A DNA stretch of 42,438 nucleotides from Synergistes jonesii (GTDB lineage: Bacteria; Synergistota; Synergistia; Synergistales; Synergistaceae), in assembly GCF_000712295.1 (NCBI RefSeq), contig NZ_JMKI01000060.1:1-42438 (forward strand). The letters are read 5' to 3'. A model generated the notes under the pieces. It was not told the DNA's origin, did not search any database, and saw only the letters and a list, made by a program, of their open reading frames with translations. Below are positions 3,216 through 13,252 of the stretch, piece after piece. The position numbers were made by a program, and so were the translations under genes. Position 1 is the first letter of the stretch, and every line of letters starts with the position of its first letter.

Positions 3216-4931
3216 TTATTTATCATCGAAATAAATGCCTAATAACTTGTCTGTATCCTTTTCTCCAGATAACTTCATAATCACGCGTTCTTGTAATTTT
3301 TGCAGTATATCTTCTGACCAGTAAGGAGAGCTTTTTTCAAAATTCTCTGAGTTGATAGACATAATATACTGTTTCCCTGTATCAATGCTATTTTGATAAA
3401 TAAATTCCATCCATTTTGCGCGATGTCCGGCGTCTATATCGGCAAATAGTGCATTATCATGCCAGACAAAGCCAAGATCATGGTTACTGCCATGGGTCAA
3501 CAGCAGCCAGTCGTATGCTAAGGTCATCTCGTGCGTGATGCCGGTCGATTTGCCTGATTGAGCAGACACCTTTAAGTCGAATTGTATCTGGTTATTACCA
3601 CCATTAGCCGTAATGGATATGCCAGCAGGTATATCCTCCCCGAACTGTAACATCAGCCGTTGAAAGAGTCCTGACTGACAATCGAGCGGAGAGCTCGCTA
3701 CATACTTAGTCGCCTCGAAATTATCGTTTGCAATAATACTCCGTATTTTTGCCTGCTGCTGCTCCAGTGCCGCGATCTCCTTCTGAACTACTCCAAGCCG
3801 CTCTATTTCAAGCTCATGCATATTTTTTTCTTGTAGCAAAGCCTGATATTCATTTTCAGAGTGCCTATTCTTTAATTGTGCCTCCAACCGTTTCGCGGAT
3901 TCCTTTAAATGCAAATATTCATTATTTAATCTTTCATTTTCTGCCTGTATCTGTTGCTTATCACATTCAAGCCTATGTGTCCTGTTTTCTGCCATTTGCT
4001 TATGAAAAACCTCTACTTTATCGAAATGCTCTAACGCACTTTCTTTGAAAAGCTTTTTCAATCCCTCATAGAGACCTTTTAGCTCATCTGCCGTCATATC
4101 TGGGGTGTAATCCAGGGCTTTGTTTATGGAAGCTAATTGATAATTATTTATCGAGATTTTCTGAAATAATGTTTCTATCTTTTCTTCTTTGTCTTTTATT
4201 TCTCTCCGAATATCATCAAAAGCTTCAAATATGTTCATATTCTCAAGCTGCGCCTTCAGTCTCTCTAATCGTTGCTTATGAGAAGCCAGATCTGCATCTA
4301 TGCCCAGCTCGTTATTTCTGGAGTTTTTCTTTATCTCTTTATATTGTTTAATTTGATTTCTGATGTTATTCAGTTTTACAGCATTTAGTTTCTTTCGTTC
4401 TGCCAGAAGGTAGGCTGCACCCAACAAATAGAGAGAACGAATAGTTGCGTCACTGGGCTTCTGATCGCTGCTGACAGGATAAATTTCATCTGAAATATCC
4501 TCACGTCTGTGCCTCATGAAGCGAGTGATGAGACTTCTGAATGATAGACCGCTTACATTTTTATCAATTAAGAATGGTCCGTTTCCATCAAAAAATTTTT
4601 GTAGCCGAGCAAGCTTTATAGCCTTGTCATCCAAAGCAAGCGTATTATTACCGACTGAGCGTTCAATCCGATGATTTTGTCCATTTAACTCAAACTCAAG
4701 AAAGAACGACCATTCTTTTGGGATTTTCTTTAAACCTTCGTTGCTATTCGCAGCTAGACAGAAATTTACCAGGCGCAGCGCCGTAGTTTTACCTACGCCA
4801 TTACAATTCCCCTTAAGAGAAGCATTTTCGCCGGATTGAGATGTCTCTCCCATAATGATAGACAGCCCAGTCGGATTGAACTGTATATCGTGGAACGATG
4901 GGTTGTTAGAATAAAGTTTTAACAGTTTCAT
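3216..4931 (-). CDS. ABC-3C system ATPase, DUF2326 family
   Basis: This 571-residue SMC-like ATPase belongs to the DUF2326 family, the ABC ATPase of ABC three-component (ABC-3C) conflict systems. The P-loop region is GNCNGVGKTT (about 41-50), embedded in an early strand and a GETSQSGENASLKG segment. A coiled coil fills roughly residues 190-400. The C-terminal half carries the second ATPase half (MTLAYDWLLLTHGSN, GFVWHDNALFADID). These ATPases are thought to sense invading nucleic acid and switch on an effector; that is a family inference. ATG at 4931 overlaps the end of the middle-component gene by 26 bases, pointing to coupled translation. Confidence 0.88.
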   Translation of the reverse strand: MKLLKLYSNNPSFHDIQFNPTGLSIIMGETSQSGENASLKGNCNGVGKTTALRLVNFCLAANSNEGLKKIPKEWSFFLEFELNGQNHRIERSVGNNTLALDDKAIKLARLQKFFDGNGPFLIDKNVSGLSFRSLITRFMRHRREDISDEIYPVSSDQKPSDATIRSLYLLGAAYLLAERKKLNAVKLNNIRNQIKQYKEIKKNSRNNELGIDADLASHKQRLERLKAQLENMNIFEAFDDIRREIKDKEEKIETLFQKISINNYQLASINKALDYTPDMTADELKGLYEGLKKLFKESALEHFDKVEVFHKQMAENRTHRLECDKQQIQAENERLNNEYLHLKESAKRLEAQLKNRHSENEYQALLQEKNMHELEIERLGVVQKEIAALEQQQAKIRSIIANDNFEATKYVASSPLDCQSGLFQRLMLQFGEDIPAGISITANGGNNQIQFDLKVSAQSGKSTGITHEMTLAYDWLLLTHGSNHDLGFVWHDNALFADIDAGHRAKWMEFIYQNSIDTGKQYIMSINSENFEKSSPYWSEDILQKLQERVIMKLSGEKDTDKLLGIYFDDK

Positions 4932-7520: not shown

Positions 7521-8615
7521 TTATTTTTTTACGATATCCAATAAACTATGGAAACAGTATACGCTTGGCGATCTTCCTTTTCCAGTTTTGAGTTCTTTCA
7601 CGATGTCATGCTTTTTTAATTTGCGTATGATTGTGGTTACCGTGGCTCTGGGGACATTGGCATTTTTGGCAAATTCTATAACATTAAATACCGGACTCCA
7701 GAAAAGACTGTCCAGTACCGCGACAGTAAATCGCGAGTGTGTTATGGACTGTATTCTACCTTTCATTTCCTCGTACAAAGCCATGATTTGACCTGCTTTC
7801 CGCACATTTGCCACAGCCTGCTCCGTAACGGCGTTTAAGAAAAATTCAAGCCATTCATTCCATTCTTTGTTGCTTGAGATATTGCGCAGTCTTAAGTAAT
7901 ACTCGTCTCTGTGTCCTTCGAGATATGAGCTTAAATAGAACATCGGCCGCGAGATAACTTTTTTCTGATATAAGAATAATGGGATAAGTATGCGCCCCAA
8001 ACGGCCATTGCCGTCTTTAAATGGATGAAGCATCTCAAATTGGGCATGTAGAACTCCCGCTTGGATGATTGCGTCTTTCTCGTTTGCGCGGGCATATTGC
8101 TCCCAATTCTCCAGGAAACCAGAGAGCTGCATTGGGTCAGGTGGGATAAAACTTGCGTTTTCCATAGAACATCCAGCTGGACCAATCCAGTTTTGCTCGT
8201 TTCGCACTTCGCCGGGAGATTTATTTTGGCCTCGTACACTGTCCAGCAGAATACGGTGCATTTCCCGAATGAGATACATAGAAACGGGTTTGTCTTCGAG
8301 GTGTTTCTGTGCCGAGAGCAATGCCTTACGGTAATTAATGATTTCCTTGATATCTTCGTGGTTGCTTTTAGGGCTGACAAGACCGGCCTCATGCTCCAGA
8401 ACTTCATCTACCGTTGCTTGTGTGCCCTCTATCCTGGAGGATAAAACAGCTTCTTCGTTCATTAGCGGCGAGAGCATTATTGTCGGATTTACAATACCGC
8501 AAAGTAACCCGTCATAACGCCCTAACATCATATTTGCCCGGGCGACAAATGTAAGTAAACGTTCGCAATCTATGATGCCCTTAAGTGGAAGCATTTCTGG
8601 AATATACGGTTCCAT
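7521..8615 (-). CDS. Fic-family AMP-transferase with C-terminal winged helix
   Basis: This 364-residue protein carries the full Fic core HPFKDGNGRLGR (197-208), whose histidine is catalytic. N-terminal to it is the class II inhibitory helix, SSRIEG around residues 59-64, matching S-x-x-x-E-G. Fic enzymes usually transfer AMP from ATP to a protein hydroxyl, and the glutamate holds the enzyme off. The C-terminus is a winged helix (VIEFAKNANVPRATVTTIIR), the common Fic-HTH layout. The reported start is ATG at 8615, 7 bases after AGGAGG; a TTG one codon upstream is too close to it. It lies in the minus-strand block between the PD-(D/E)xK and FRG genes. Autoregulation or a toxin-like defence role are both possible. 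Confidence 0.93.
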   Translation of the reverse strand: MEPYIPEMLPLKGIIDCERLLTFVARANMMLGRYDGLLCGIVNPTIMLSPLMNEEAVLSSRIEGTQATVDEVLEHEAGLVSPKSNHEDIKEIINYRKALLSAQKHLEDKPVSMYLIREMHRILLDSVRGQNKSPGEVRNEQNWIGPAGCSMENASFIPPDPMQLSGFLENWEQYARANEKDAIIQAGVLHAQFEMLHPFKDGNGRLGRILIPLFLYQKKVISRPMFYLSSYLEGHRDEYYLRLRNISSNKEWNEWLEFFLNAVTEQAVANVRKAGQIMALYEEMKGRIQSITHSRFTVAVLDSLFWSPVFNVIEFAKNANVPRATVTTIIRKLKKHDIVKELKTGKGRSPSVYCFHSLLDIVKK

Positions 8616-8626
8616 CAAAAATCCTC

Positions 8627-9795: not shown

Positions 9796-10512
9796 TTAAA
9801 TCACTGGTTTCGGTTTTGAAACTCGGATTATTCGCAAGACCCTCCCATAGACTAAAAAGAACGAATCCACGTTGACTTGGATGTCCATGTAGTCCCTATT
9901 GGTAGAGCGAAGAATCGGCGGTTTGCCTTCTCCCTGGCTGACCATACCCTTCACCATGAGCCGCCCGTCCAAGCAGACGACCATGACATTGCCGCTCACC
10001 CAATCATGGCTGTGGTTGAACACGACGATGTCGCCGTCATGTATCTGCGGCTCCATGCTGTCACCCTCTACCGTCATGCAGCTGAGCGATTTGTCAGAAT
10101 AAAATGCGGACAGCTCTGCGTCGAATACCGGCCACGTGCCGACGAATTCAAGCTCTGGCGCGTCGACGTCGTAGTTATTGCCGTTACCCGCCGAAAGGCG
10201 TATTTCTGGCGATACCATAGGCACCATCAGGATATTCTCAGGCGGTATGGGGCGCACGTTAGATTGAAGCTCCAGATCCGGCGTGCCCACACGGGACGCC
10301 TGCGGCGGCGTTGGATCGTCGGTCTCACCCATCAGATAGGCGACGCTGGTGTTGAGGGCGGAGGCGAGGCGCTGTTTTGTCTCATCGTCCGGCTCGTTTA
10401 TGTTATTCTTCCAACGCGATAAGGTAGCCCCCGTAACATTAATAATGTCCAACAATTCATTAGTTTTTATTCTTATTTCCTTTTGTCTGAGAGAAATCCT
10501 TTCGCCTATCAA
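9796..10512 (-). CDS. CI-type repressor (XRE HTH plus S24 peptidase)
   Basis: The N-terminal XRE helix-turn-helix (about 15-65, VTGATLSRWKNNINEP) is joined to a C-terminal LexA/S24 self-cleaving domain. The catalytic serine lies in GDSMEPQIHDGD and the lysine in RLMVKGM. Such proteins repress lytic genes and are inactivated by RecA-stimulated autocleavage. TTG at 10512 is chosen because it lies 7 bases from AAAGGAGG; a TTG two codons earlier is too close. It is divergent from cro with operators between. As the first gene of the minus-strand block it could co-express the defence genes in lysogens. Confidence 0.93.
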   Translation of the reverse strand: MIGERISLRQKEIRIKTNELLDIINVTGATLSRWKNNINEPDDETKQRLASALNTSVAYLMGETDDPTPPQASRVGTPDLELQSNVRPIPPENILMVPMVSPEIRLSAGNGNNYDVDAPELEFVGTWPVFDAELSAFYSDKSLSCMTVEGDSMEPQIHDGDIVVFNHSHDWVSGNVMVVCLDGRLMVKGMVSQGEGKPPILRSTNRDYMDIQVNVDSFFLVYGRVLRIIRVSKPKPVI

Positions 10513-10670
10513 GCTCAACCCTCCTTTGTAATTATAAGGATACGAAAAGCGTAATATTTTGGCAATCGCGTTTCTTGTAATTGCATATTACATAAAACGA
10601 AATATGGGCTTTTAGACCTATTGAATTATTACATATTGCGTAATATTATGTAATGCAAGGAGGTGAGAAA
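10513..10670. promoter_or_regulatory. cI/cro switch: divergent promoters and operators
   Basis: A recurring half-site GTAAT/ATTAC marks the operators. A perfect GTAAT-N5-ATTAC palindrome lies at 10577-10591. Further half-sites are at 10528, 10551, 10628-10632 (ATTAC), 10640 and 10650. For the repressor, TTGCCA (10560-10565, minus) and TATCCT (10537-10542) are 17 apart. For cro, TTGAAT (10621-10626) and TATTAT (10644-10649) are 17 apart, and two half-sites overlap that -10. Binding at these sites would control both promoters. Confidence 0.7.
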
Positions 10671-10904
10671 ATGAATTTAGACAGGATTATGAAAGATAAA
10701 AAAATTACGAATATCGTAATAGCAAAACGCTTTAATACAACAACTGCAACTGTATCACGCTGGCGCAATGGCGTAAATAATCCAGATCCAAGCATTCTGC
10801 CCGAGCTTTGTGATTATCTCGGCTGCACGTTGGACGAACTTCTGCGCGACGACGTAAACCCTACGTCGTCCCCGTCTGCGAAAACGGGCGGGGAGACGGC
10901 ATAG
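10671..10904 (+). CDS. Cro-like XRE regulator
   Basis: This 77-residue protein is a single XRE helix-turn-helix domain: IAKRFNTTTATVSRWRNGV is the recognition unit, followed by PSILPELCDYLGCTLDELL. It is divergent from the repressor and is therefore the expected Cro partner that shuts off repressor transcription in lytic growth. ATG at 10671 lies 5 bases after AAGGAGGTG; a further ATG at 10653 lacks a ribosome site. Confidence 0.85.
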   Translation: MNLDRIMKDKKITNIVIAKRFNTTTATVSRWRNGVNNPDPSILPELCDYLGCTLDELLRDDVNPTSSPSAKTGGETA

Positions 10905-11065: not shown

Positions 11066-11090
11066 GCACCATGACAATCGAATACCGGGC
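11066..11090 (+). repeat. 25-bp early-region repeat, copy 1
   Basis: First of three identical 25-base copies (others at 11920-11944 and, inverted, 12513-12537). The sequence begins GCACCATGACAATCGAA and ends TACCGGGC. Each copy lies 25-41 bases before a small gene read in the same direction, here the RHH gene at 11124. Similarity stops sharply at both edges. Confidence 0.9.
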
Positions 11091-11148
11091 GAAACAAAAA
11101 CTTCATGAAAGAGGGGTGGAGACGTGGAGAAAAAACAGAGCACGGTAA
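11071..11148 (+). CDS. Possible 25-residue protein starting in the 25-bp repeat
   Basis: ATG at 11071, inside the repeat, is preceded by GGAAGGTG at 4 bases. The frame encodes a basic peptide (MTIEYRAKQKLHERGVETW) and overlaps the RHH start by 25 bases, so translation could be coupled. In the two other repeat copies the same ATG gives only 8 and 10 codons. It could be a leader peptide or the original gene whose 5' end was copied elsewhere. Confidence 0.35.
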   Translation: MTIEYRAKQKLHERGVETWRKNRAR

Positions 11149-11306
11149 TCAACATAAGGCTTGACGACGATACCGTGCGTAGGGTTGACGAGTGCGCGGC
11201 ACGGGTGGATAGGAGCCGGTCAAATCTTATTCGGCATTTGATTTTAACAGGGCTGGATGCGCTTCAAGATAACGCTCGATTGCGTCCTTCAGCAACCAGC
11301 TCATAG
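11124..11306 (+). CDS. Ribbon-helix-helix protein A (plus strand)
   Basis: This 60-residue protein has an Arc/MetJ-type ribbon-helix-helix fold: strand VINIRLDDDTV, then helices with VDECAARVDRSRSNLIRHLI. RHH proteins bind DNA as dimers through the paired strands, usually as repressors or antitoxins. GTG at 11124 follows GAGGGGTGGAG. The last 80 bases overlap the 3' end of a convergent RHH gene (11227-11400), so the two mRNAs are complementary there. Confidence 0.75.
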   Translation: MEKKQSTVINIRLDDDTVRRVDECAARVDRSRSNLIRHLILTGLDALQDNARLRPSATSS

Positions 11307-11400
11307 TATTGCTAATGCTTCGGTCTTCGGCAGAGGCAATCAGCAGTAGTTTTTCGTCAACAGTATCATCGATTCTCATGTTCCTGACTTTTGTCGTCAT
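11227..11400 (-). CDS. Ribbon-helix-helix protein B (minus strand)
   Basis: This 57-residue RHH protein (VRNMRIDDTVDEKLLLIASAEDRSISNTMSW) is convergent with RHH A and shares 80 bases with it. ATG at 11400 follows GGAGGTG at 6 bases; a GTG at 11409 would sit within that ribosome site. Its upstream region holds an array of GTGGTAAT repeats, the likely operator for this gene and the divergent RHH C. Confidence 0.75.
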   Translation of the reverse strand: MTTKVRNMRIDDTVDEKLLLIASAEDRSISNTMSWLLKDAIERYLEAHPALLKSNAE

Positions 11401-11437
11401 TGTTACCACCTCCGGCTACAGAATATCATAAATAGTT

Positions 11438-11509
11438 GTGGTAATTGGTGGTAATATGTGGTTGCTTTTATCATATGTTTATGATATTATTTGTGGTAGA
11501 AACAACCAC
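11438..11509. promoter_or_regulatory. 10-bp-spaced repeat array and promoter between RHH B and RHH C
   Basis: GTGGTAAT occurs at 11438-11445 and 11448-11455 with a variant GTGGTTG at 11458-11464, one helical turn apart. GTGGT (11493-11497) and ACCAC (11505-11509) form an inverted pair. For the plus strand TTGCTT (11462-11467) and TATTAT (11485-11490) are 17 apart, so the array abuts the -35 and the inverted pair overlies the transcription start. Side-by-side repeats of this length are typical RHH operators. Confidence 0.6.
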
Positions 11510-11530
11510 GACAGCATGGGAGGTGAGCCG

Positions 11531-11677
11531 ATGGAACTGATAATCAGCCAGATACGATGGCCGGCGGAGGTCTACAGGCAGGTTAAGGAGCGCGCCTATC
11601 AGGAGCGCAAGAGCGTGAACAAGATGGTGGTCGAGCTGGTGCTAGAAGCGCTGGCTAAAGACAAGAAAGTGAGGTAA
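11531..11677 (+). CDS. Arc-like ribbon-helix-helix protein C
   Basis: This 48-residue Arc/Mnt-like protein has strand IISQIRWPAEVYRQV and helices KERAYQERKSVNKMVVELV. ATG at 11531 follows GGGAGGTGAG; the frame is open upstream but lacks a ribosome site there. It is divergent from RHH B across the GTGGTAAT array, which one or both products probably bind. It is followed at 5 bases by the next small gene. Confidence 0.78.
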   Translation: MELIISQIRWPAEVYRQVKERAYQERKSVNKMVVELVLEALAKDKKVR

Positions 11678-11682
11678 TCACT

Positions 11683-11883
11683 GTGAATTACAGCGGAGAA
11701 GTTGAAATTATTTGTTACCCGGGCGGCAGCTGCCGTGTACGTATCAACATTCCGTTAGATTTTAGGCTAACCGAGGATGAAGCCGCGGAGAAGATGCGCT
11801 CGATTTGGGCAGAGTACGTTACCCCGCGGCAGAAAGGGCTCCCGCTCCCGCCAGAGCGAAAGCTGCCTTTTAAGACCGCTTGA
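11683..11883 (+). CDS. Unknown 66-residue protein
   Basis: GTG at 11683 lies just after the RHH C stop codon, with GTGAGG as ribosome site inside the previous gene. The product is compact, with a strand-rich first half (GEVEIICYPGGSCRVRINIP) and a helix (TEDEAAEKMRSIWAEYV). It probably forms an operon with RHH C. No family is recognised and the first half contains only two cysteines. Confidence 0.55.
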   Translation: MNYSGEVEIICYPGGSCRVRINIPLDFRLTEDEAAEKMRSIWAEYVTPRQKGLPLPPERKLPFKTA

Positions 11884-11919
11884 TTATTTTGTCAAAGCAG
11901 CCGCTGAGTGGGCGACAAA

Positions 11920-11944
11920 GCACCATGACAATCGAATACCGGGC
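11920..11944 (+). repeat. 25-bp early-region repeat, copy 2
   Basis: Identical to the copy at 11066-11090 over 25 bases, with unrelated flanks. It ends 25 bases before the TTG start of the small gene at 11970. The internal ATG opens only an 8-codon frame here. Confidence 0.9.
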
Positions 11945-11969
11945 ATATTAAATTTAAGGGGGTGTGATA

Positions 11970-12140
11970 TTGGAATCTACGCTTATTGCTGCAATAGAAA
12001 ATATGACAGAACAGATTAAGCTGCTCCGTCAAGATTTTCAAGAATTCGAACATATAAATATAGAAATCGGAAATCCATCATTAACAAAAGAGCAAGAGAG
12101 AGCTATTGGCAATCAACTTCAACGTCTCCTGACAAGGTAA
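11970..12140 (+). CDS. Unknown 56-residue helical protein
   Basis: A TTG start at 11970 follows AAGGGGGTG. The product looks like one long helix (IAAIENMTEQIKLLRQDFQE) and a shorter one, so it may form a coiled-coil dimer. Its last 38 bases overlap the end of the convergent gene at 12103-12471. No family is recognised. Confidence 0.5.
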   Translation: MESTLIAAIENMTEQIKLLRQDFQEFEHINIEIGNPSLTKEQERAIGNQLQRLLTR

Positions 12141-12471
12141 GGCCGACAATCTCATCAGTGAATAGTATTAGGCTGCCAATGTTGATTTCCCTAGAGCCGG
12201 TGATGATTTTTACATCTTTAAGGATTATATACTTGCCTTTAATACTTTCCTGAAGTTCCAATTCTTCTATCTTTTGATGAGTCTGTTCGACAACCGCCCT
12301 AATGCACTCCTCTTGCAGATTAGAGCTTCCTTTGTTAGATGAGGGTATTCCTGAAATCAATCCGGCAGAAGTAAGAAAGTTTAACCTCATATTTTTAAGA
12401 GGCGGCTCTTCTGCCCCAAACAGAGTAGAGAATGCACCAGTAAATGTTTCTTTACAAGTTAAATCTTTCAA
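12103..12471 (-). CDS. Unknown 122-residue protein, convergent
   Basis: TTG at 12471 follows AAAGGAG. The C-terminal half is strand-rich (KGKYIILKDVKIITGSREI) and the middle is helical (EECIRAVVEQTHQKIEELE). It is preceded, in its own direction, by the inverted copy of the 25-bp repeat, and its 3' end overlaps the plus-strand gene by 38 bases. It could be a small phage-encoded host-interaction protein; nothing in it is diagnostic. Confidence 0.6.
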   Translation of the reverse strand: MKDLTCKETFTGAFSTLFGAEEPPLKNMRLNFLTSAGLISGIPSSNKGSSNLQEECIRAVVEQTHQKIEELELQESIKGKYIILKDVKIITGSREINIGSLILFTDEIVGLTLSGDVEVDCQ

Positions 12472-12512
12472 AATGGGGCTCCTTTCATTTCTATAACCCC
12501 TATAAAAAACAA

Positions 12513-12537
12513 GCCCGGTATTCGATTGTCATGGTGC
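12513..12537 (-). repeat. 25-bp early-region repeat, copy 3 (inverted)
   Basis: The reverse complement of the repeat at 11066 and 11920, identical over 25 bases. It lies 41 bases before the TTG start of the minus-strand gene at 12471, so again it sits upstream of a gene in the same direction. Copies 2 and 3 face each other around the two convergent genes. Confidence 0.9.
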
Positions 12538-12571
12538 ATATAGCACAGCGCAAAAGCTTGGAGGTGAGGAT

Positions 12572-12754
12572 GTGGAGAATATAAAAAGCATATTGCATAC
12601 GCAGCTACGGATAGATCCAAGCTTATGGAAAACGGTCAAGCACGAAGCCGTTGATAATAGCGTATCCACAAATCAAATGGCTATTATCTTGATTTCAGAG
12701 GCTCTGGAAGCGCGCCATGCTCATTCTCATAACGTTCTACCTCGGACTGGATGA
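12572..12754 (+). CDS. Ribbon-helix-helix-like protein D (plus strand)
   Basis: This 60-residue product has an RHH-like pattern: strand LHTQLRIDPSLW, then helices KTVKHEAVDNSVSTNQMAIIL. GTG at 12572 follows TTGGAGGTGAGG. Its last 71 bases overlap the 3' end of convergent RHH E. The start GTGGAGAA is the same as in RHH A, suggesting a distant common origin of the two pairs. Confidence 0.65.
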   Translation: MENIKSILHTQLRIDPSLWKTVKHEAVDNSVSTNQMAIILISEALEARHAHSHNVLPRTG

Positions 12755-12869
12755 TCCTTGATGCGAAGGCGTTAAACGATTCGTCGTAAACAGCGGCTAA
12801 AATTTTAGCTTTTGCAAAGAGCCGATTATCAATTCTCAACTGAGTGGCAACAATGTCTGACAACTGCAT
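12684..12869 (-). CDS. Ribbon-helix-helix-like protein E (minus strand)
   Basis: A 61-residue RHH-like protein (IVATQLRIDNRLFAKAKILA, then ESFNAFASRII) convergent with RHH D. TQLRID is shared with RHH D, so the partners look like paralogues. ATG at 12869 has only a weak GGGGG ribosome site. The region upstream contains the inverted pair CTAT/ATAG (12900-12910), a possible operator. Confidence 0.65.
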   Translation of the reverse strand: MQLSDIVATQLRIDNRLFAKAKILAAVYDESFNAFASRIIQSEVERYENEHGALPEPLKSR

Positions 12870-12902
12870 AACCCCCTATGTAATATGATACTAAACAACC
12901 TA

Positions 12903-12931
12903 TTGCATAGTAAAATAAGTTGTGCTAATAT
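12903..12931 (+). promoter_or_regulatory. Probable early-operon promoter
   Basis: TTGCAT (12903-12908) and TAATAT (12926-12931) are 17 apart, about 60 bases before the gene at 12992. The -35 lies within the inverted sequence CTATTGCATAG. The motif TTGCTAATA / TGTGCTAATATT occurs twice nearby (12921 and 12943). This probably starts the plus-strand early operon and may be controlled by a neighbouring RHH protein. Confidence 0.5.
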
Positions 12932-12991
12932 TCCAGATGTAATGTTGCTAATACACCTATTAAATTTAAGCTACAGAAAGGAGACAAAAAA

Positions 12992-13252
12992 ATGACAGAG
13001 ATTGAAACAAAGCTCGATTACCTGATCGAGCTGCTTGAAAAGGAGCAGCGGGGGCTGCGGCGTTTTCTTACGCGCGACGAGGCGGCGGAGTATATGGGTA
13101 TGAGCGGCTATACGCTGGACGAATATCAGCGCAAAGGCACGCTGCAGATCCCGTCGGTGAAGATCGGCAAAATGGTGCGGTACGACCTGAAGGATATCGA
13201 CCGCTACGCCGACGGACTGCCGAGAAGGGAGCGTGTGAAAGGGGAAAGGTAA
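12992..13252 (+). CDS. Excisionase-type helix-turn-helix protein
   Basis: This 86-residue protein has a short N-terminal coiled coil (ETKLDYLIELLEKEQ) and a MerR/AlpA-like winged helix-turn-helix (RDEAAEYMGMSGYTLDEYQR, then IPSVKIGKMVRYD). This fits the helix_turn_helix_17 excisionase-type family. It could help the integrase in excision or act as an early regulator. ATG at 12992 follows GAAAGGAG. The next gene starts immediately after its stop codon. Confidence 0.75.
   Translation: MTEIETKLDYLIELLEKEQRGLRRFLTRDEAAEYMGMSGYTLDEYQRKGTLQIPSVKIGKMVRYDLKDIDRYADGLPRRERVKGER

Follow-up and report, generated by a model that had tools for sequence, protein, structure and literature searches.

Overlapping twin pairs of ribbon-helix-helix (RHH) genes in prophages of the Synergistota resemble a viral on/off switch of a type not described before. 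In each pair, a rightward gene, named A throughout, and a leftward gene, named B, meet tail to tail and share coding bases on opposite strands. Both genes evolve as proteins, they carry the same residues at the positions predicted to read DNA, and they seem to travel between phages together with a putative operator. The window, that is, the whole stretch of DNA analysed, is an entire prophage contig of 42,438 bases from the Synergistaceae, the content of which matches the IMG/VR record 2609460167_000002. It harbours two such pairs.

The overlapping pairs and their genetic setting

The genes relevant here are the following, with C denoting the Arc-like gene divergent from B1:

9796–10518 (−): CI-like repressor (Pfam Peptidase_S24, 8e-15; HTH_3, 9e-5)
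10653–10904 (+): Cro-like HTH regulator, start of the rightward early operon (Pfam HTH_26, 2.8e-12; HTH_3, 6.8e-9)
11124–11306 (+): A1, rightward RHH protein on the cro side, 60 aa, GTG start, strand VINIR
11227–11400 (−): B1, leftward RHH protein, 57 aa, strand VRNMR, 72% identical relative in G006
11227–11306: antisense coding overlap of A1 and B1, 80 nt, equal to 2 mod 3
11531–11677 (+): C, Arc-like RHH protein heading the operon divergent from B1 (Pfam Arc, 2.3e-6)
12572–12754 (+): A2, rightward RHH protein, 60 aa, GTG start, strand HTQLR, homologue in G007 with the same layout
12684–12869 (−): B2, leftward RHH protein, 61 aa, strand ATQLR, homologue in G007 with the same layout
12684–12754: antisense coding overlap of A2 and B2, 71 nt, equal to 2 mod 3
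12992–13252 (+): HTH_17/excisionase-like protein heading the operon divergent from B2 (Pfam HTH_17, 9e-7; phrog_66, 6e-10)

A first-pass annotation of this DNA had described five RHH genes, including two tail-to-tail pairs that share 80 and 71 coding bases. All of these open reading frames are present at the same coordinates, and the overlaps are exact (11227–11306 and 12684–12754). A1 and A2 both begin with GTGGAGAA, the common start reported for the plus-strand members, and the motif TQLRID can indeed be found in both A2 and B2. Further leftward, beyond the CI-like gene, the contig encodes a Fic-domain protein (Fic_N, 2e-22; 7521–8618(−)) and a protein with DUF2326 (3216–4931(−)).

With regard to the fold, A1 matches Pfam RHH_1 above the cut-off (6e-8) and has a 55% identical relative in G006; the Pfam Arc match of C likewise exceeds the cut-off. 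A2, B1 and B2 singly fall below the Pfam cut-off and reach E values of 1e-19 to 1e-25 against an RHH profile whose input sets contained these proteins. A profile of the B members matches chains of Arc, Mnt and CopG (E 0.007–0.05). The AlphaFold (AF2) models of A1 and B1 (pLDDT 83.8 and 89.1, respectively) display two helices after an N-terminal stretch, with the strand unassigned in these monomer models, and their best Foldseek matches are the RHH domains of Arc, CopG, PutA and antitoxins, none better than E 0.03. The predicted structures of A1 and B1 and these matches thus agree with an RHH fold.

Recurrence of the layout in Synergistota

A search with the B proteins across the family and the phylum, in which the loci were read, afforded 18 further tail-to-tail overlapping RHH pairs (L060, L061, L062, L063, L099, L101, L104, L106, L109–L115, L117 (twice) and L126) that are spread over several families of Synergistota. 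Together with the two pairs of the window, this amounts to 20 pairs, 18 of which are non-redundant after removal of the near-duplicates L112 and L115. The overlaps range from 47 to 95 nt, and their length equals 2 mod 3 in 20/20 cases. In this phase, the two genes have their first codon positions opposite each other, while the third position of A faces the second position of B. Since 18 further pairs exist in Synergistota, each with an overlap of 2 mod 3, the layout did not arise by chance. A Shine-Dalgarno-like site precedes nearly every pair member. Conservation of the overlap in relatives, the lack of which had been named beforehand as refuting the initial proposal, is borne out by these 18 pairs. 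The notion that the repeated layout is functional is now strongly supported by 20 pairs, by both members evolving as proteins and by the co-variation of their DNA-contact residues (see below).

A looser case is L125 with a 26-nt overlap, also 2 mod 3. A second convergent RHH pair in L112 and one in L123 belong to a different type, with overlaps of just 4 nt. Among the 48 loci scanned, no non-overlapping convergent version of the A/B pair was found. Scans of viral contigs with five RHH proteins yielded, besides the window's own record, only one additional pair (L126) and L127, the pair of which is that of L101. Genes of type B also occur alone in L097 (twice) and L116, and a solo A gene is found in L120; pairing of A and B is hence not obligatory. 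In other families, B homologues on chromosomes mostly lack a partner. The RHH5 homologues L064–L069 were ruled out as further pairs, being chromosomal and unpaired. Unpaired B2-like RHH genes (TRFDE/TQVRIDE type, 70–90 aa) were observed in L064–L069, L098, L100, L102, L103, L105, L107 and L108, and several such genes in Synergistota chromosomes adjoin a gene for a large conserved membrane protein.

Outside Synergistota, a shallow search of phages at the DNA and protein level (including tblastn) and the viral-contig scans revealed no overlapping RHH layout. The weak matches to phage records included IME10, MT837744, MW202577 and bajarodino virus 80, and inspection of IME10, MW202577 and bajarodino virus 80 gave no evidence for an overlapping RHH partner. 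Likewise, no description of this design was found in the open-access literature.

Codon evolution of A and B

Substitutions were compared in five pairs of loci, each pair related yet independent of the others, and the counts were pooled. Outside the overlap, 83/147 changes in A and 77/104 in B affect third codon positions, a concentration that proteins under selection should show. Inside the overlap, wobble changes drop to 21/80 for A and 34/80 for B (Fisher p 1.4e-5 and 1.9e-5, respectively). If a single gene were in use, it should retain its wobble excess; the vanishing of this excess for both genes in the overlap therefore indicates that both are in use. By this measure, the substitution patterns show that A and B are both translated.

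Shared recognition residues and allele-specific repeats

In Arc, the bases are contacted by Gln9, Asn11 and Arg13 (PMC12645479), and the equivalent residues in RelB are S3, D5 and R7 (PMC2812701). Numbered back from the invariant arginine, positions R-4 and R-2 of the proteins considered here correspond to Gln9 and Asn11 of Arc. The residues at these positions differ widely between pairs (VN, TQ, QY, QS, QT, ST). Within pairs, A and B have the same residue at R-2 in 17/18 cases (5.0 expected after shuffling, p about 2e-5; the mismatch is L099 with N vs Q) and R-4 in 13/18 (3.7 expected, p about 2e-5). When shuffling is confined to the two sequence classes, the matches at R-2 and R-4 yield p values of 1e-4 and 3e-4, and adjacent buried or distant positions exhibit a much smaller excess of A/B matches. 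As the recognition residues are located in the non-overlapping halves of the genes, shared DNA cannot account for this agreement. Carrying the base-contacting residues of its partner B, A most likely occupies the same operator, so that A and B of one pair would probably read the same site. This sharing of predicted recognition residues is new here and generalises the TQLRID motif seen in one pair.

Two regions of the window are candidates for such operators:

11437–11497: putative operator O1, TGTGGT-type repeats about 10 bp apart (11437, 11447, 11457) and one at 11492
12870–12991: putative divergent operator/promoter O2 between B2 and the next operon, equivalent in position to O1 and to the operator of L060

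The target regions first proposed, 11438–11509 and 12870–12931, fall within the divergent intergenic regions, which are the likely operators. O1 covers the predicted leftward −35 element of B1 (11454–11449), for which the promoter scan is weak on its own, and its repeat array recurs beside the VN/VN pair in L061. In O2, k-mer counts gave no clear repeat. Across the alleles, the gap that separates B from the following operon contains TGTGGT in the case of VN (window and L061), CAATTAC in the TQ group, TCGCA with QY, TTTAGT with QS and SS, CATTGA/TCAAAGA with QT, and TTGTAA/GGTTG in the T group. The alignment-free k-mer similarity of the gaps is 0.44 within the same allele vs 0.21 for others, a value reached by 0/5000 permutations (p < 0.001). 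The repeats, which were chosen from the gaps, number 46 copies there, against 0 in the 87 nt that precede A. These allele-specific repeats, the putative binding sites, sit solely between B and the divergent next operon.

Exchange of the pair with its putative operator

Phage immunity regions are exchanged as units, and the flanks of the A/B pairs display the corresponding pattern. L109 and L112 are 100% identical between −20 and +40 of A; similarity resumes at +410, immediately ahead of C, with 93% identity, and the stretch in between shows no match. L060 and L061, which belong to one genus, have only the downstream operon in common (92%). The window, L117 and L126 share C (80–86%) and contain three different A/B alleles, and L104 shares C and a ligase-like gene with L115/L106, while the alleles differ. 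Altogether, A, B and the gap repeats were exchanged against constant neighbours at least four times. The swaps in these comparisons of flanking sequence show A, B and the gap, with its putative operator, to act and to move between phages as what appears to be one specificity cassette.

A model for the switch and alternative readings

Clues to what the pairs control come from the neighbouring operons. In L097, two solo B genes are divergent from genes for Bro-N antirepressors, Bro-N or Rha genes come after the pairs in L114 and L099, and an Arc-like C is present at 11 pairs. No antirepressor was identified in the window's operons divergent from B1 and B2, the first genes of which are Arc-like and HTH_17. 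In the immI region of phage P22, mnt and arc control ant (PMC8022706). The position of B, alone or paired, beside antirepressor genes follows the same logic, which suggests that B represses the next early or antirepressor operon as well as itself. On balance, the A/B pair is thus rather probably a secondary-immunity switch, similar to P22 immI, of temperate Synergistota phages.

In this switch, the leftward B would bind the repeats in the divergent region between its gene and the next operon, and thereby repress the latter, i. e. the Arc-like C, a Bro-N/Rha antirepressor, or genes of the excisionase or replication type. Probably, B represses its own promoter too. A, which is read rightward from the cro side, could occupy the operator of B either as a homodimer or as an A/B heterodimer, and may then displace or poison B once the early promoter fires. 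In addition, the crossing transcripts may contribute transcriptional and antisense interference, favouring whichever side is on. An overlap of 47–95 nt leaves no room for a terminator, so that each mRNA must enter the other gene; terminator scanning found no consistent terminator between A and B. In L109, L111 and L112, a terminator of the B transcript is predicted within the first codons of A, and the B mRNA would hence be antisense to nearly all of A. The first-pass annotation had proposed mutual antisense control, and competition between the proteins is at least as likely. Tentatively, and with less than even confidence, the pairs could represent a new design, in which competing repressors of the same specificity are encoded antisense to each other, competition and transcript collision generate a bistable switch, and the whole is traded together with its operator.

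A doubtful alternative that still carries some weight is an overlap without regulatory role. One ancestral pair would have been inherited and reshuffled, with dual coding serving to lock or link A, B and the operator. The single antisense phase in 20/20 pairs suggests such a common origin, and the cassettes move as a unit. Yet, with lengths spread over 47–95 nt, small changes could lose the overlap, and still the 48 loci include no non-overlapping version. It is unlikely that A and B share the operator in order to co-operate, A being a second repressor or an obligate heterodimer partner in a graded or two-condition lock. Their recognition residues are the same, and RHH proteins dimerise through the very strand that contacts DNA, which makes heterodimers plausible. 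However, opposite directions and overlapping transcripts make joint high expression unlikely, and the occurrence of B alone beside antirepressors implies that it does not need A. Very improbably, the RHH genes might encode partition (ParG-like) proteins or antitoxins, with the repeats as a centromere or a toxin-antitoxin operator. RHH antitoxins are indeed among the closest folds, and some loci contain a gene of the ParB-like/KorA-HTH type downstream (L111), but no recurring ParA or toxin gene adjoins the pairs, antirepressors recur instead, and the pairs are positioned between cro and the next early operon. A conserved toxin gene, as typical of type II toxin-antitoxin systems, was found at none of the loci read; given the recurring layout and the lack of a recurring toxin or ParA gene, chance, toxin-antitoxin and partition readings were rejected. 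Finally, a spurious or decaying reading frame as one partner in each pair is scarcely credible and, by the substitution patterns, already contradicted: annotation pipelines usually drop overlaps of this kind and A2, B1 and B2 singly stay under the Pfam cut-offs, but both genes show a wobble excess in their non-overlapping halves and lose free wobble in the overlap, nearly all members have Shine-Dalgarno-like sites, and the recognition residues co-vary between partners.

Comparison with known systems

The immI-like switch preferred here resembles its P22 counterpart in several respects. B, like Mnt, would be an RHH repressor divergent from an operon with an Arc-like C or an antirepressor; an Arc-type RHH gene heads the divergent operon, the window's C being a Pfam Arc member. 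Both are a second control region beyond the main cI/cro-type one that varies among related phages (PMC8022706). In contrast, immI belongs to the late operon, where genes 16 and 9 flank it, whereas the Synergistota pair adjoins cro, and no overlapping RHH gene lies tail to tail with mnt; in the P22-like IME10, the Mnt-like gene faces the ORF of gene 16. To our knowledge, an A gene with the recognition residues of B has no counterpart. The A/B pair would hence work like immI, yet is not classed as immI.

As with CI and Cro of phage lambda, two small DNA-binding proteins encoded in opposite directions would share one operator. However, A and B are RHH instead of HTH proteins, and their genes are convergent and overlapping instead of divergent around the operator, which lies on one side only. 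In excludons or noncontiguous operons, convergent genes without a terminator between them give rise to overlapping mRNAs, and mutual exclusion is possible (PMC7154746). The coding overlap of A and B makes overlapping mRNAs unavoidable as well, and these may repress each other. Excludons involve UTR overlaps between unrelated partners, unlike the coding overlap of two RHH proteins with the same recognition residues. An antisense overlapping gene, laoB of E. coli O157:H7, exemplifies two proteins from opposite strands (PMC5810103). This gene is an orphan ORF overprinted on an old gene, whereas A and B share one fold and their layout recurs across families.

In bacteria, it is rare for two translated genes to overlap in antisense over a long stretch, and such cases are often met with doubt. 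The pairs described here provide 20 overlaps that all share one phase; evidence at the codon level supports both proteins, and there is a natural reason why they should stay together. In addition, the many matched sets of RHH residues and operators make a recognition code, the exchange of immunity cassettes and antisense switching testable in one small system.

A 25-nt repeat and further convergent genes

The region also contains three copies of a 25-nt repeat:

11066–11090 (+): copy 1, GCACCATGACAATCGAATACCGGGC, at the cassette border
11920–11944 (+): copy 2
12513–12537 (−): copy 3, inverted

In prophages of the Synergistaceae, this repeat (GCACCATGACARTCGRATACCGGGC) borders variable gene cassettes beside cro, in either orientation. 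It is also found in L007, L013, L028, L029, L030, L031, L061 and L117, with five copies within 5 kb in L028, and 5/183 genomes of the order contain it. Some copies belong to a strong hairpin that has a GCCCGG arm (L061, −22.9 kcal/mol). The repeat could serve as a terminator, a recombination border or a protein site. A role as RHH operator was ruled out, as the repeat is invariant across the RHH alleles and missing from many pairs.

Between inverted copies of the repeat, L028 harbours convergent ORFs (7893–8159(+) and 7978–8298(−)) with a 182-nt overlap, one of which may be spurious; by eye, a similar DGW/QGW stretch is seen in both. The window itself contains a third convergent pair, which is not of the RHH type (11964–12140(+) and 12103–12471(−)). 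Its 38-nt overlap likewise equals 2 mod 3, inverted copies of the 25-nt repeat flank it, and the leftward protein matches phrog_3773 (3e-8).
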